Source: Sediminibacillus massiliensis
Lineage (GTDB): Bacteria > Bacillota > Bacilli > Bacillales > Amphibacillaceae
Direction: 5' to 3'
Assembly (NCBI RefSeq): GCF_900156915.1
Contig: NZ_LT732535.1
Coordinates: 327,120-391,119, forward strand
Length of the DNA stretch: 64,000 bases
Numbering within the stretch: position 1 is the stretch's first letter; every line of letters begins with the position of its first letter. The position numbers and the translations under genes are program-made. The notes beneath the pieces are model-generated. The model was not told the DNA's origin. It worked only from the letters and a program-made list of their open reading frames with translations, and did no database searches. Positions 15,114 to 63,636 of the stretch are shown here, in pieces.

Positions 15114-15998
15114 GTGCCTAAGGCCTTACAAAATTTTTTAACGGAAACTCAGACTTCTATAAATCAAGAACTGATCAGGCAAATCGAACAACTCGATTTG
15201 CCTGAAAGGCTGAAAGCTTCCATGCTCTATTCCGTCAAAGCCGGGGGGAAAAGACTGCGGCCTGCCTTGATGATTGCAAGCTTCCAATCCTATGGTGGAG
15301 AAGGAGACAAAGCCCTTTCCACTGCTGCAGCTTTGGAAATGATCCATACTTACTCTTTGATCCACGACGATTTACCAGCAATGGATGATGACCACTACAG
15401 AAGAGGAATGCCTACGAATCATAAACAGTTTGACGAAGCAACGGCGATTCTTGCCGGCGATGGTTTGCTGACCTATAGTTTTGAAATCATTGCAAAAGAT
15501 GAATTGCTTTCAGACAGCCAAAAAGTCAAACTCATCGGTATGCTCAGCGGTGCTGCAGGGCCAAAAGGGATGGTTGCAGGGCAAATTCTTGATATGATGG
15601 CAGAAAACAAGGAAAGTACTTTGGGCGAACTGGAGACAATCCATACATTGAAAACAGGGCAACTACTGAAGTTTGCAGTGGCCGCAGGCGCTTTTCTGGG
15701 TGGTGCAACAGATTACCAATTAGAAGCTCTGCATAAATTCGCTTACTATTTAGGTTTAATATTCCAAGTGCAGGATGACATCCTCGATATCGACGGAAAT
15801 CCTGAATTGATAGGAAAGCCAATTGGTAGTGACGCTACCAATTTCAAGAGTACTTTTCCGAAATTGTTAGGTATGGAAGGGGCAATCGATCAAAAGAATT
15901 CCTATATGGATAAGGCAAAAGAAGCATTGGCCGATGCCGAGGTCCATTCATCGATCCTCTTTGAAATTACCGAACACTTTGGAAACAGGGATTATTAG
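15114..15998 (+). CDS. ispA: Farnesyl diphosphate synthase
   Basis: Condenses dimethylallyl and isopentenyl diphosphates to geranyl and farnesyl diphosphate. The 294-residue polyprenyl synthase has the first Asp-rich motif in HDDLPAMDDD and the second in QDDILDIDG, plus GGKRLRP near the N-terminus. The frame is open from 15060, but the GTG at 15114 directly follows the xseB stop with AGGAGGAA at the right distance and gives the usual N-terminus and length. The OLE RNA gene follows in place of the usual direct ispA-dxs junction. Confidence 0.95.
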   Translation: MPKALQNFLTETQTSINQELIRQIEQLDLPERLKASMLYSVKAGGKRLRPALMIASFQSYGGEGDKALSTAAALEMIHTYSLIHDDLPAMDDDHYRRGMPTNHKQFDEATAILAGDGLLTYSFEIIAKDELLSDSQKVKLIGMLSGAAGPKGMVAGQILDMMAENKESTLGELETIHTLKTGQLLKFAVAAGAFLGGATDYQLEALHKFAYYLGLIFQVQDDILDIDGNPELIGKPIGSDATNFKSTFPKLLGMEGAIDQKNSYMDKAKEALADAEVHSSILFEITEHFGNRDY

Positions 15999-16027
15999 TA
16001 TCGTTTCGAGACGCTGATAAGTAATTA

Positions 16028-16056
16028 TTGAGCAAACGACAAAAATATGATATATT
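16028..16056 (+). promoter_or_regulatory. Candidate sigma-A promoter for OLE RNA
   Basis: TTGAGC (16028-16033) and TATATT (16051-16056) are 17 bases apart. The predicted transcription start, near 16063, falls at the base of the long terminal stem of the OLE RNA. Transcription from upstream genes may also contribute. Confidence 0.55.
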
Positions 16057-16062
16057 ATAAAG

Positions 16063-16670
16063 ACAAATGGAATGGTGCAGTATTCTAGTCAGTCCTCCGT
16101 TCCTGAAGGCGGGCCTAAAAATCCGCCAAAGGGCACATCGATGAAGTTCCTTGTGCTGGCTTGAGGCGCCCAGCCTTGGGTCAGTGCTGGGAGTTAAGGT
16201 TGCAGGGCGATCCACAAAGGCATGTGGGCGAGGACCCTGCTTCCGCGGAGGCCCATCTCTGTAGTGGTTTCTAAGCCTAGAACCCGCTATGGACTGGGGT
16301 ATGAACCTGCGCAATAGGGAAAGGGAATCTCTATTCGCAGCGTAGCCTGCCTTGAGTGGTGCTGAGGGGATTATGGTTATAAATGGCGAGATTGTGGCCA
16401 CTTTCTTTTCATTTTCTGCCATATGAAATCAACACTGCAAAAGAGGCTAGGGAACGGCCAAAGACTGCTGAGGAAATCTCCTAGACTGTTCCGATGGACA
16501 TTTAAAAGGGATTATAGTGCGGACTAAGTGGTAATCCAGTCTAGCCATTGGCAACAAGGCTAAGATGGATTTAAAGGGGAACCGCCAGAATGGCAACATT
16601 CGGTATCCATCTGGGAAAACCTACTGGACCTAAGCCGCAGTTTTTACCTTTTAAGTGACCATTCCAATTA
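16063..16670 (+). ncRNA. ole: OLE RNA (ornate large extremophilic RNA)
   Basis: About 600 bases without a plausible protein gene lie between ispA and an OapA homologue. They are visibly richer in G+C than the flanks and full of nested complementary segments. The ends pair: TGGAATGGT at 16068-16076 with ACCATTCCA at 16658-16666. Internal stems include GGCGG/CCGCC (16108-16127), GCAGGG/CCCTGC (16202-16240) enclosing CCACA/TGTGG, and AGATGGAT/ATCCATCT (16563-16612). Size, structure and the ispA-RNA-oapA-dxs order match the OLE class known from B. halodurans. OLE forms a membrane ribonucleoprotein with OapA and affects tolerance to cold, alcohols and Mg2+. Exact ends are estimates. Confidence 0.92.
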
Positions 16671-16699
16671 CATAATTGAATTTTTCAAGAGGTCAATAA

Positions 16700-17275
16700 A
16701 TGAAATCACACTTAAGTAAGTCATTAAAATTTAGTTTGAGTATTGCCGTTATCACATTTGTGTTAGCGGCTATTTTTTCAGTTATCTCCTCGTCCGTACT
16801 TAGTGGGGTAGTATGGATTGTAGGATTGTTTATCGTGCTGCTGATCGTTTTAATCGGTGTTGTATTTGATATGCTCGGCATTGCAGCCACTGCTGCTGAT
16901 GAAGTACCCTTTCACGCCATGGCAGCAGAGAAGGTAAGCGGTTCCAAACAGGCGATCCAGATTGTACGTAATGCCGATAAGTTTGCAAGTTTTTGCAATG
17001 ATGTAATCGGTGATATATCTGGGATTGTCAGCGGGACCGCTTCCGCCATTGTTGTCCTCCAGGTTGCAAATGGGTTCGGTTATTCTGAGGGATCCACAGT
17101 CCAAATCGTCATTTCGGTTGTTTTGACAAGTCTCGTGGCGGCATTGACTGTCGGTGGAAAAGCAATTGGAAAGTATTTTGCAATCCATGCCTCCACCAAT
17201 ATCATATTTTTTGCAGGTAAAATGATTGCTTTTATGGAGGAAAAATTTAAAATAAAATTGATATCCCAACGTTGA
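16700..17275 (+). CDS. oapA: OapA, OLE RNA-associated membrane protein
   Basis: A 191-residue integral membrane protein with hydrophobic segments at about 12-32, 38-60, 100-120 and 128-148. It has an acidic/polar loop after the second segment ([19 protein letters not shown]) and a basic C-terminus. OapA binds OLE RNA and holds it at the membrane; the family resembles the membrane domain of CNNM/CorC-type transport proteins. The ATG at 16700 follows AAGAGGTC, 30 bases after the OLE 3' stem. dxs follows after about 125 bases. Assignment rests on position next to OLE and topology and is strong. Confidence 0.9.
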
Positions 17276-17399
17276 TAAGGGTCGAAATATGAAACATCTT
17301 AGTGAAAAGTCTGTTATACTGATGGGGAAAGCAATGAGAGCTTCTGCATTGGCACATTCAGGCAAGCAGAAATTAGTGATGAAGGGGAGGACTCCCAAA

Positions 17400-19292
17400 A
17401 TGGATCTTAATGAAATCAAAGATCCTTCGTTTTTAAAATCATTGTCAAACGAAGACTTGGAAAGATTAGCAGCAGAAATACGTGAGTTCCTGATTGAAAA
17501 ACTGTCTGTGACAGGTGGGCACTTAGGAGCAAATCTAGGAGTAGTGGAGTTAACACTTGCTCTTCATAAATTGTACGATAGTCCAAAGGACAAGTTTCTT
17601 TTTGATGTCGGTCACCAGTCCTATATCCACAAAATTTTGACCGGACGCACGTCACAGTTCGATACTTTGCGTCAATATAAAGGGCTGTGCGGGTTTCCTA
17701 AAATGCGGGAAAGCGAACATGACGCCTGGGAGACAGGCCACAGTTCCACTTCCCTCTCCGGCGCGATGGGGATGGTGATTGCCCGCGATCTTAAAAAAGA
17801 AAATCATCATGTCATCCCGATCATTGGTGATGGGGCCTTGACAGGTGGTATGGCATTGGAAGCTTTGAATCATATCGGCCATGAAAAAAAGGATATAACT
17901 GTTATTCTGAACGATAATGAAATGTCGATCGCCAATAATGTAGGAGCTTTGCACAATGCACTGGGACGGATGCGGAGCGCAGGGAAATATCACCGTGTAA
18001 AAGATGAACTGGAATGGTTGATGAAGAAGGTTCCTGCGGTGGGCGGACGTCTCGCCCAAACAGCGGAACGAATTAAAGACAGTATGAAATACTTCATGGT
18101 TCCGGGTATGTTGTTTGAAGAATTTGGTTTTACCTATTTCGGTCCAGTCGATGGTCATGATTTTAACGATTTACAGGAAAACCTTAATTATGCCAAAAAA
18201 ACCAAAGGGCCGGTCCTTGTCCATGTCATCACCCAAAAAGGAAAAGGTTATCAACCGGCAGAATTGGATGAAAAGGATAAGTGGCACGGGGTGGGACCTT
18301 ATAAAATCGATTCCGGCGAAAAAATTAAACCTGTCGGAGGTCCTCCGGCATGGAGCGAAGTGGTCAGCGGTACTTTGCAAAAGATAGCCAGGACTGATAA
18401 ACGATTGGCCGTCGTCACTCCTGCGATGATTTTAGGGTCAAAACTGGAAAAGTTCCATCAGGAGTTTCCGGAAAGGCTGTTCGATGTCGGGATTGCAGAA
18501 CAACATGCAACCACAATGTCCGCAGGCCTGGCAACGCAGGGAATGAAGCCATTCCTTGCTATTTATTCCACTTTTCTGCAAAGAGCTTATGATCAGATTA
18601 TTCACGACGTATGCAGGCAGAACTTGAATGTAGTCTTTGGGATAGACAGAGCCGGACTGGTGGGAGCAGACGGAGAAACGCATCAAGGCGTATTTGATGT
18701 AGCTTTCCTTCGTAATATCCCAAATATGGTAGTCATGATGCCTAAGGATGAAAATGAATGCCAGCACATGGTCAATACTTCCATTGAGTACAACGACGGC
18801 CCTGTTGCCGTTCGGTATCCAAGAGGGACAGGTATCGGGGTTCGGATGGACGAGTCGCTTTCTAATATACCAATCGGTAGTTGGGAAGTACTTAAAGAAG
18901 GATCAGATGCTGCCATTCTCACATTTGGGACTACCATTGAAATGGCTATGAAAGCCAGTAAAGAACTACAGGCAAAAGGTTTGTCGGTAAAGGTAATCAA
19001 TGCCCGTTTCATTAAACCGTTAGACAATGACATGCTTCATGGCTTGATGAGGGAGAATATGCCGATCCTCACCATTGAAGAAGCAGTACTCAAGGGCGGT
19101 TTCGGAAGTGCTGTGCTGGAGTTCGCAGAAGAAAATGGCTACAATGGACAGGTCATAAAAAGAATGGGTATTCCGGATCGATTTATTGAACATGGTAAAG
19201 TTGAGGAACTTTTAAACGAGATCGGTCTTACCAAGGAAGATGTCATAGCAAATATACAGCATATGCTTCCAAGTAAACAGCAAAGGGCATGA
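17400..19292 (+). CDS. dxs: 1-deoxy-D-xylulose-5-phosphate synthase
   Basis: The thiamine-diphosphate enzyme that joins pyruvate and glyceraldehyde-3-phosphate in the first step of the MEP isoprenoid pathway. The 630-residue protein shows the ThDP-binding [18 protein letters not shown] segment ending in NDNEMSI, and in the second domain [15 protein letters not shown]. The frame extends upstream to 17289, but the ATG at 17400 gives the family N-terminus ([13 protein letters not shown]) and follows GGGGAGG. With ispA it brackets the OLE/oapA pair. Confidence 0.96.
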
Positions 19293-20152: not shown

Positions 20153-20199
20153 ATTTGCGTATTTTTCATAATTTCATGTACGAGAAATGGAGGAATATG

Positions 20200-50272: not shown

Positions 50273-50332
50273 ATGACAATAGAGTTTACACTTGAATTGA
50301 CATAGCTTTTGACACGTCAATTGACAACCATT
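50273..50332 (+). repeat. Five tandem 12-bp units with TTGACA heads
   Basis: TGACA/TTACA cores start at 50274, 50286, 50298, 50310 and 50322, exactly 12 bases apart. The units are ATGACAATAGAG, TTTACACTTGAA, TTGACATAGCTT, TTGACACGTCAA and TTGACAACCATT. A shorter, same-orientation copy lies at 49230-49265. Such arrays occur at transposase-binding ends (for example IS21-like elements), but no transposase gene is present. Confidence 0.7.
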
Positions 50333-50377: not shown

Positions 50378-51172
50378 TTATTTTCTGTCTCCTCCCAACA
50401 AGTCGAATAATCCTCCGGCAATGCTCCCTTCCCCTTTGGAACCGCCTTTTTCAGGCATGGCGGCGAATACCCGGCTAGCGAGCCTGCTGAATGGCAAGGA
50501 TTGGATCCAAACTGTGCCGGGTCCGCTCAGGGTGGCAAAAAACAGGCCTTCACCACCGAACAGGGCTGTTTTTATACCGCCTACATATTCTATCTGATAA
50601 TCGACATCTCCGGTCATCGCTACGAGACAGCCGGTGTCCACTCGCAGCTTTTCTCCATGGAGCAGTTTTTTTTCATGGATAGTTCCACCAGCATGTACAA
50701 AAGCCATCCCATCTCCTTCCAGCTTCTGCATAATAAAGCCCTCTCCGCCAAAAAAACCTGTACCTATTTTTCGCTGGAATTCCACTCCGATTTCAACACC
50801 TTTAGCAGCGGCAAGGAATGCATCTTTTTGACAAATCAATTTTCCGTTTATCTCGCTTAAATCCATCGGGATTATTTTACCAGGGTAGGGAGAAGCGAAA
50901 GATACATGCCTTTTTGTAGTTCCTTCATTCGTAAAGGTGGTCATGAACAGACTTTCACCTGTGATCACTCGTTTGCCAGCACCAAATAGTTTTCCGACAA
51001 TTCCGCCCTTGTCCGCGGATCCATCACCGAAAATAGTTTCCATCCTGATGTCGTCTTCCATCATCATCAAACTTCCTGCTTCAGCTATTACTGTTTCCTG
51101 TGGATCCAATTCTACTTCGACAAACTGCATATCATCTCCATGTAATTTGAAATCGATTTCGTGATTATTCAC
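50378..51172 (-). CDS. TIGR00266/AIM24 family protein
   Basis: A 264-residue beta-helix-type protein of the AIM24/TIGR00266 family, function unknown in bacteria. Repeated Gly-rich motifs GGIVGKLFGAGKRVITGESLFMT (about 52-74), GTGFFGGEGFIMQKLEG and FGGEGLFFATLSGPG are family marks. The frame is open to 51301, but the GTG at 51172 lies five bases after AAAGGGTGA and removes an unrelated, Cys/basic N-terminal stretch. It is divergent from the SIMPL gene. Confidence 0.85.
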   Translation of the reverse strand: MNNHEIDFKLHGDDMQFVEVELDPQETVIAEAGSLMMMEDDIRMETIFGDGSADKGGIVGKLFGAGKRVITGESLFMTTFTNEGTTKRHVSFASPYPGKIIPMDLSEINGKLICQKDAFLAAAKGVEIGVEFQRKIGTGFFGGEGFIMQKLEGDGMAFVHAGGTIHEKKLLHGEKLRVDTGCLVAMTGDVDYQIEYVGGIKTALFGGEGLFFATLSGPGTVWIQSLPFSRLASRVFAAMPEKGGSKGEGSIAGGLFDLLGGDRK

Positions 51173-63409: not shown

Positions 63410-63636
63410 AGAAAGACCGTAAAACAAAAGATGGAAACAATACGCTGAAAGAACGTTTAAACCAGTCGCTCGTAGAACAGCTTCGTTCAAAAAAAAATGA
63501 ATGGAAAGTAGCAGAAGAAAAAGAAAAAGAAACAGAGAGATTGAGAAAAATAGAAGAACGGAAGCAGCGGGAAGCGAATAAGAGTTTCGAAGAATTGTTG
63601 AAAGAAAGCGACATGGACTGGAAAAAATATAAATGA
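63406..63636 (+). CDS. yqkC: YqkC (DUF3886) small charged protein
   Basis: A 76-residue, highly charged, probably coiled-coil protein with a Lys/Glu-rich centre (about 26-58) and the family ending EELLKESDMDWKKYK. The ATGA overlap with yqkB and its ribosome binding site (AGAGG) show coupling. The function of the family is unknown. The homologous pair yqkB-yqkC occurs in B. subtilis. Confidence 0.87.
   Translation: MKKDRKTKDGNNTLKERLNQSLVEQLRSKKNEWKVAEEKEKETERLRKIEERKQREANKSFEELLKESDMDWKKYK

Follow-up and report, generated by a model that had tools for sequence, protein, structure and literature searches.

An intact, full-length OLE RNA gene beside oapA and its variants among relatives

What occupies the roughly 600 bases between ispA and oapA, and what might it do there? 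In the window (the whole 64,000-nucleotide stretch of DNA analysed here), the initial annotation placed an OLE RNA, a very large structured noncoding RNA, at positions 16063-16670. Few structured bacterial RNAs without a known biochemical function are as large as OLE, and the description of that function as still unsolved agrees with the 2024–2025 papers in the parts available. Statements cited below by PMC accession refer likewise to the available parts of those papers. This copy alone settles nothing. Its relatives provide natural tests, namely an arm-less OLE in a genome without OapC, an OLE and oapA decaying together, and a rarely conserved bS21 motif, and they suggest both parts to mutate and H. 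halodurans claims not to generalise.

The locus matches RF01071 (OLE) at 16056-16678 of the forward strand, which carries all features below unless stated otherwise, with 541 bits, E 7e-156 and coverage of model positions 1-616 of 616 (cmscan, Rfam 15; gathering score 50 bits). The annotated span lies inside this match, the likely RNA extending from ~16063 to ~16670, and the expected size of about 600 bases is borne out together with the conserved helix set. This is the sole Rfam match above the gathering score within the 64-kb window and the single OLE match in the genome (4.35 Mb, 6 contigs). The nested complementary segments described earlier are present: 148 of the 157 base pairs of the Rfam model are canonical, and the strand folds at -241.1 kcal/mol, compared with a shuffle mean of -196.2 (z -5.9; 0/20 shuffles as good). 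The surrounding gene order is xseB-ispA-OLE-oapA-dxs-tlyA, which includes the ispA-OLE-oapA-dxs arrangement that had been claimed. ispA (15114-15998), encoding a polyprenyl/farnesyl diphosphate synthase, has a proposed GTG start behind GGAGG; dxs (17289-19292) is assigned from its open reading frame and family matches, and the reading frames at 20155 and 20712 beyond tlyA are taken, by sequence, to be argR and recN. Full model coverage and gene order support the assignment to the OLE class, and the element is, with practical certainty, a real and intact OLE gene.

By both oapA and OLE, the nearest named relative is Sediminibacillus, a genus of halophiles, and the closest OLE fetched is that of Sediminibacillus albus (91.8% identical; L008, same sequence at L037). 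The host may be an extremophile-type Bacillaceae, as the initial annotation proposed. Elsewhere in the window, three short tandem repeats are found (50274-50327, 50644-50679 and 63505-63558), and ARAGORN detected no tRNA genes in the 64 kb.

A sigma-A-type promoter-like site is located at 16028-16056 (TTGAGC-17 nt-TATATT with TG before the -10 box; 9 of 12 positions), and the annotated 5' end at 16063 lies ~7 nt behind its -10 box. The scanned stretch holds five promoter-like sites against 2.9 in shuffles, so that the window's site alone is weak. Its conserved place carries more weight: an upstream site with at least 9 of 12 positions occurs at 93 of 106 OLE loci of the nearer set, window included, where single-base shuffles reach 21%; 15-19 nt separate the end of the site from the conserved GGUGCAG in 82 of those 93 loci. 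The earlier placement of a promoter at the 5' end thus holds. The claim that the stretch contains no credible protein gene agrees with our analysis as well; the one long open reading frame, an antisense frame of 151 aa at 15967-16422, has no Pfam or NCBIfam match and holds stops in 104 of 105 other loci (frame followed from the aligned start position, indels left uncorrected), and was rejected as a gene.

For comparison of the helices, 194 OLE sequences from family searches, named oapA loci and a phylum sample were aligned, leaving out identical sequences, two duplicate fetches, loci without OLE and one decaying relic. They comprise 106 nearer sequences (mostly Bacillales, with two Clostridiaceae MAGs) and 88 from the wider phylum, where the OLE places are the better-scoring matches listed, so that short variants are under-sampled. 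Across the 194 OLEs, the 157 pairs of the Rfam model reach 88.8% canonical, compared with 72.9% in one shuffle. The two ends of the RNA pair with each other, as had been noted: the 5' strand of P1 (16069-16076), absent from the Rfam model, joins 16658-16665 by eight canonical pairs out of eight, and P1 is canonical in 97.7% over the 194 OLEs compared with 80.8% with shuffled partners, relatedness being ignored. P2 (16078-16088, containing CUAG) pairs with 16481-16488; it is nearly invariant and therefore provides no covariation evidence. P3.1 (16090-16094 with 16463-16467) and P3 (16097-16103 with 16451-16457) form 12 canonical pairs out of 12 in the window and are left unpaired by Rfam. Over 189 OLEs, five with odd segment lengths being dropped (L042, L104, L182, L219 and L223), canonical pairs make up 95.8% in P3 (shuffles: mean 69.8%, maximum 72.8%) and 91.9% in P3.1 (shuffles: mean 70.8%, maximum 74.5%), again with relatedness ignored; the gap for P3 is larger in the 85 wider-phylum OLEs (92.6% versus 60.4%). 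Judged from the alignment, P1, P3 and P3.1 covary and extend the pairing beyond the Rfam model.

The remaining elements follow in the order known from full-length OLE. P4 (16108-16127) forms a hairpin whose A-rich loop is CCUAAAAA (dimer bridge B1), followed by J4a/5 (16128-16147) containing AUCGAUGAAG, the 5' strand of the k-turn. The P5 arm (16147-16193) exposes the loop GCCCA, which would kiss L6.1 of the partner RNA, and the P6 arm (16198-16244) exposes AAGGCA. P7 (16252-16298) and P8 (16307-16340), numbered after the papers, together span 16252-16340 as in full-length OLE, and P9 (16349-16447) ends in the apical palindrome UGGCCA (dimer bridge B3). The main part of domain 2 (16499-16657) contains two hairpins ending in GGCAAC and is the OapB target region according to the papers. 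All loops of the published dimer contacts (PMC12286853, PMC12265935), L4, L5.1, L6.1 and L9, are present in the window as CCUAAAAA, GCCCA with GGCA, and UGGCCA. The run of five A in L4 is kept in 193 of the 194 OLEs, and so are GCCC in L5.1 and GGCA in L6.1, the exception there being L104. The L9 palindrome is GGCC in 177 sequences, AGCU in three, GGCGCC in two, GGCGCGCC in one and another form in three, and eight have no apical P9 in the alignment. In L185, L201 and L203 the palindrome is altered to GGCGCC or GGCGCGCC with its self-complementarity kept; GGCGCC-type palindromes are not among the types named in the available parts of the published dimer accounts. By analogy with those structures, we infer that the window's OLE may form a dimer.

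Directly downstream of OLE, the reading frame at 16700-17275 encodes a membrane protein of 191 aa. It is identified as oapA from its place, from relatives encoded at 80 named loci (44-88% identity) and from the invariance of D101 and D105 in 39 of 39 aligned OapA proteins. These two residues are equated, by their spacing, with D100 and D104 of H. halodurans OapA, the residues mutated in earlier work (PMC9723947), and would be their counterparts. At E 1e-3 the protein has no match in Pfam, PF01595 (CNNM) included, or in NCBIfam, and is therefore not filed as CNNM; a profile search against PDB sequences gave no match at E 10. Aligned with five CNNM proteins, the OapA profile reaches an hhalign probability of 9.8% (E 0.0033), and OapA has been reported as the next-best cluster to PF01595 (PMC11332333). 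The AlphaFold2 model of OapA has a mean pLDDT of 83.2 and a pTM of 0.72. Its six best Foldseek rows are all CNNM/CorC structures (E 0.015-0.85, none below 0.001), and VIA-align superposes it on MtCorB with Z 12.1, a value that can be generic for helical bundles, at rmsd 2.3 over 130 aligned residues, the first unrelated row scoring 7.1. The predicted fold of OapA appears to resemble the membrane domain of the CNNM/CorC Mg2+ transporters, a likeness that our own sequence comparisons do not support. The invariant lysine K154 of OapA (window 17159-17161) aligns, weakly, with the invariant glutamate of the CNNM motif GELAPK, which is presumably a Mg2+ ligand; a lysine in this position speaks against transport by the same site, as far as the weak alignment goes.

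Candidate genes for the other known partners are found elsewhere in the genome. The candidate OapC is an L7Ae-type protein of 83 aa encoded between rpoC and rpsL, and one further L7Ae-type match, of the YlxQ type, is present besides it. The candidate OapB is a KOW-like protein of 111 aa encoded between map and infA; its KOW match of 19.4 bits lies below the Pfam cut-off of 22.3, so that its naming rests on place and size too. A candidate gene for bS21 is also present. On the RNA side, the window's form of the J4a/5 k-turn strand is the commonest (97/194 OLEs), and CGAUGAAGU in J4a/5 is kept by at least 163 of 194, counted over the nine commonest forms. OapC, by contrast, has been reported in only ~45% of OLE organisms (PMC11332333), and its absence accordingly loses strength as a sign of co-loss. 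The bS21 site of H. halodurans OLE includes the motif CCUCCU, located on the 3' side of P6 (PMC12054373). This motif is missing from the corresponding strand of the window (16228-16251; CCCUGCUUCC) and from 188 of the 194 OLEs in all, being present in six (1/106 nearer, 5/88 wider phylum); the shorter CCUCC is found in 22 of 194. The available parts of PMC12054373 contain no statement on how widely CCUCCU is kept. They report that conserved G-C pairs matter for bS21 binding, and bS21 may therefore still bind OLEs without CCUCCU.

A natural deletion is found in Bacillus fonticola, whose complete chromosome carries an OLE of 489 nt and 253 bits (L104:2440-2928). This RNA lacks P5, P6, their kissing loops and the k-turn strand, and its P7/P8 region is reduced; P3, the P4 A-loop, P9 with GGCC and domain 2 are kept, and oapA is open. 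It folds with z -2.83 (0/100 shuffles as good). Among 81 relatives, B. fonticola included, 55 have an OLE, and only that of B. fonticola is short, the others scoring 472-545 bits. The score of 253 bits would fall in 'variant 2' by the score classes of PMC11332333, which are based on another model, yet variant 2 is defined there by the lack of P7 and P8. The B. fonticola genome contains one L7Ae-type match, regarded as YlxQ-type because it lies beside nusA. Neither oapC nor a visible remnant of it was found at the rpoC-rpsL junction, and tblastn of OapC in 400 kb of this genome returned only 34 residues at E 0.21, while OapB is present (58.7% identity). With our OapC as query, matches were obtained among 60 chosen genomes in 35/35 with full-length OLE, in 20/23 without OLE (two of which, G571 and G128, appear to be one genome) and in the relic genome, and not in B. 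fonticola. A limited literature search found no paper naming both OLE RNA and fonticola. Tentatively, and on balance rather doubtfully, OLE may be modular: a core of domain 2, P3, P4 and P9 with OapA might work without the arm thought to carry the translation-linked partners, the arm that B. fonticola has dropped (P5, P6 and k-turn) along with OapC, and bS21 docking through a mimic of the 16S tail might be a habit of few lineages rather than a class property, the window's lineage included. Two points argue against a close coupling of arm and OapC: it is drawn from one case, and OapC occurs in only ~45% of OLE organisms (PMC11332333).

Within the same family, OLE is found in 111 of 159 genomes, the relic genome G079 included, so that the expectation of an informative new homologue holds only weakly. 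A match to oapA occurs in the same 111 genomes and, besides, as a stop-riddled stretch in G101. The latter (E 5.9e-4, four stops) is probably due to chance and was rejected; the G101 locus shows no match to the queried OLE-locus neighbour genes other than ispA, the ispA query being uninformative. Three of the 111 lack an uninterrupted oapA: the gene is fragmented and carries stops in G079, contains a single stop in G116 and is split in G110, where the split is put down to sequence error because the adjoining dxs is also split. At two loci (L111 and L116), tlyA directly follows oapA with no dxs between. OLE is also present in 284 of 398 genomes drawn from the phylum, under strict filters that lost some weak matches, and 2,822 OLE hits have been counted in Bacillota (PMC11332333).

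Family genomes with OLE contain on average 1.62 CNNM matches compared with 2.52 in the 48 without (relatedness ignored), in line with the report that MpfA is likewise less frequent in OLE organisms (PMC11332333). Only CNNM counts are given here, since MpfA orthologues could not be separated from other CNNM proteins. In genus g27, three OLE genomes have two CNNM matches each and eight without OLE have 2-4. In genus g25, the mean is 3.0 in seven genomes with OLE, the relic counted, and ~2.5 in 21 without, both groups ranging from 2 to 4. The antagonism is thus not strict, because g25 shows no such difference and the genome analysed here has two CNNM matches itself.

In G079, a decaying OLE and a decaying oapA adjoin each other (L111:4001-4962). 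The relic OLE has 394 nt and scores 133.8 bits, and its P9 stem and domain 2 are largely gone. Its fold reaches z -1.38, with 12/100 shuffles as good, and the oapA beside it is the fragmented one mentioned above. Seemingly defective ole genes in organisms without OapA are mentioned in PMC11332333, and decay of the G079 type is accordingly of a known kind.

A second OapA-like protein, 48-50% identical, is encoded away from ole in seven genomes (loci L131-L137). It is intact in G035, G139, G140, G143 and G145 and broken in G138 and G141, and G056 contains a 50-residue piece of it. The genes beside it, where present, are taken from sequence and a T-box to be helD-like or ileS-like. Upstream of the second oapA lies, in most of these genomes, an undescribed leader composed of GGUAAUUCA followed by a CCGGGGUGGUAGCCGG hairpin (L134:3380-3485; L170-L174). 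As an exact pattern, the motif occurs once each in five genomes of genus g38 (G138-G141 and G145) and in 0/154 other family genomes; when one such locus was searched against Rfam, the best match was 16.2 bits (E 0.47) and was not accepted. In G139, the leader motif is separated from the second oapA by an array of self-matching repeats (L131:2781-3442).

Taken as a whole, it is likely that OLE acts as a ribonucleoprotein with OapA at the membrane, standing in for CBS/CorC domains. ole would be transcribed from its own sigma-A-type promoter and probably also by read-through from ispA, and the RNA of ~600 nt would fold into OLE and dimerize with another copy by loop-loop pairing. OapA, encoded by the adjoining gene, would hold OLE at the membrane, with OapB and OapC helping its folding. 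OapA is predicted to have a CNNM/CorC-like membrane fold with none of the usual cytosolic CBS/CorC domains, for which OLE would most likely substitute, tuning cation flux and growth under stress. Replacement by OLE of the CBS/CorC domains absent from OapA is a published proposal (PMC11332333, PMC12265935). Dimerization, the binding of OapA, OapB and OapC, the membrane location, the stress phenotypes and the CBS idea are taken from published work on the OLEs of H. halodurans and clostridia; by analogy with these, we infer that all this may hold in this species and that OLE may regulate transport.

Other readings start from the same observations. The size of OLE and its conservation (190 of the 819 columns in the alignment of the 194 OLEs reach at least 97% identity) would suit a ribozyme, for example one making a signal nucleotide, with OapA only a membrane anchor, and Breaker's group has proposed such activities, including c-di-AMP synthesis (PMC11332333). 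We regard this as quite unlikely: no reaction is shown in the available parts of the papers, and the joint decay of OLE and oapA in G079 fits an obligate ribonucleoprotein better than an independent catalyst. That P3/P3.1 is a 12-bp stem crossing the bilayer has been suggested by Lyon and Breaker (2025, PMC12265935); OLE would then be an integral membrane RNA whose domain 2 lies outside. The 12 pairs in the window agree with this, as does the P3 5' strand, which measures 16-17 nt in 192/194 OLEs despite its variable, covarying sequence. Length is, however, equally or more constant in other variable segments of the core (16603-16613, sd 0.19, and 16647-16660, sd 0.16, compared with 0.51 for the P3 5' strand), so that length constancy was discarded as non-discriminating; a membrane-crossing stem seems unlikely.

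A reading of the element as a cis-acting leader of oapA-dxs, and not as a separate RNA, could be argued from the OLE match ending 21 nt before oapA, with no terminator-like site found between them. The promoter-like site at a conserved place argues otherwise, as do the length and conservation of OLE, which are unusual for a leader. Control of dxs would moreover not be general, since dxs does not follow oapA in L111 and L116. In H. halodurans, the RNA of ~630 nt acts with OapA (PMC9723947), and a leader function is very improbable. It is hardly conceivable that the window's OLE is an inactive remnant; its 148 canonical pairs, intact conserved loops and open oapA differ from the true remnant in G079, with its low score, poor fold and broken oapA. 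The ribonucleoprotein with OapA hence remains our preferred reading.

Compared with known systems, the window's copy is itself ordinary and its class already known; novelty is low for this copy and moderate for the variants found alongside it. The knockout phenotypes of OapA and of MpfA/CNNM-CorC proteins are alike (PMC12265935, PMC11332333), whereas OapA, with its 191 aa, lacks their CBS and CorC domains. The OLE of H. halodurans carries the 16S-like CCUCCU in P6, where the window has CCCUGCUUCC instead. Of the two OLE variants described for the TANB77 and RF39 clades, variant 1 has shorter P7, P8 and P9, and variant 2 lacks P7 and P8 (PMC11332333); the window has all of these helices. With full-length OLE, as in H. 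halodurans and in the cryo-EM structure from C. acetobutylicum (PMC12286853), it shares model coverage, dimer loops and the k-turn strand, and it likewise has oapA downstream, ispA and dxs as neighbours and a promoter-like site of its own.
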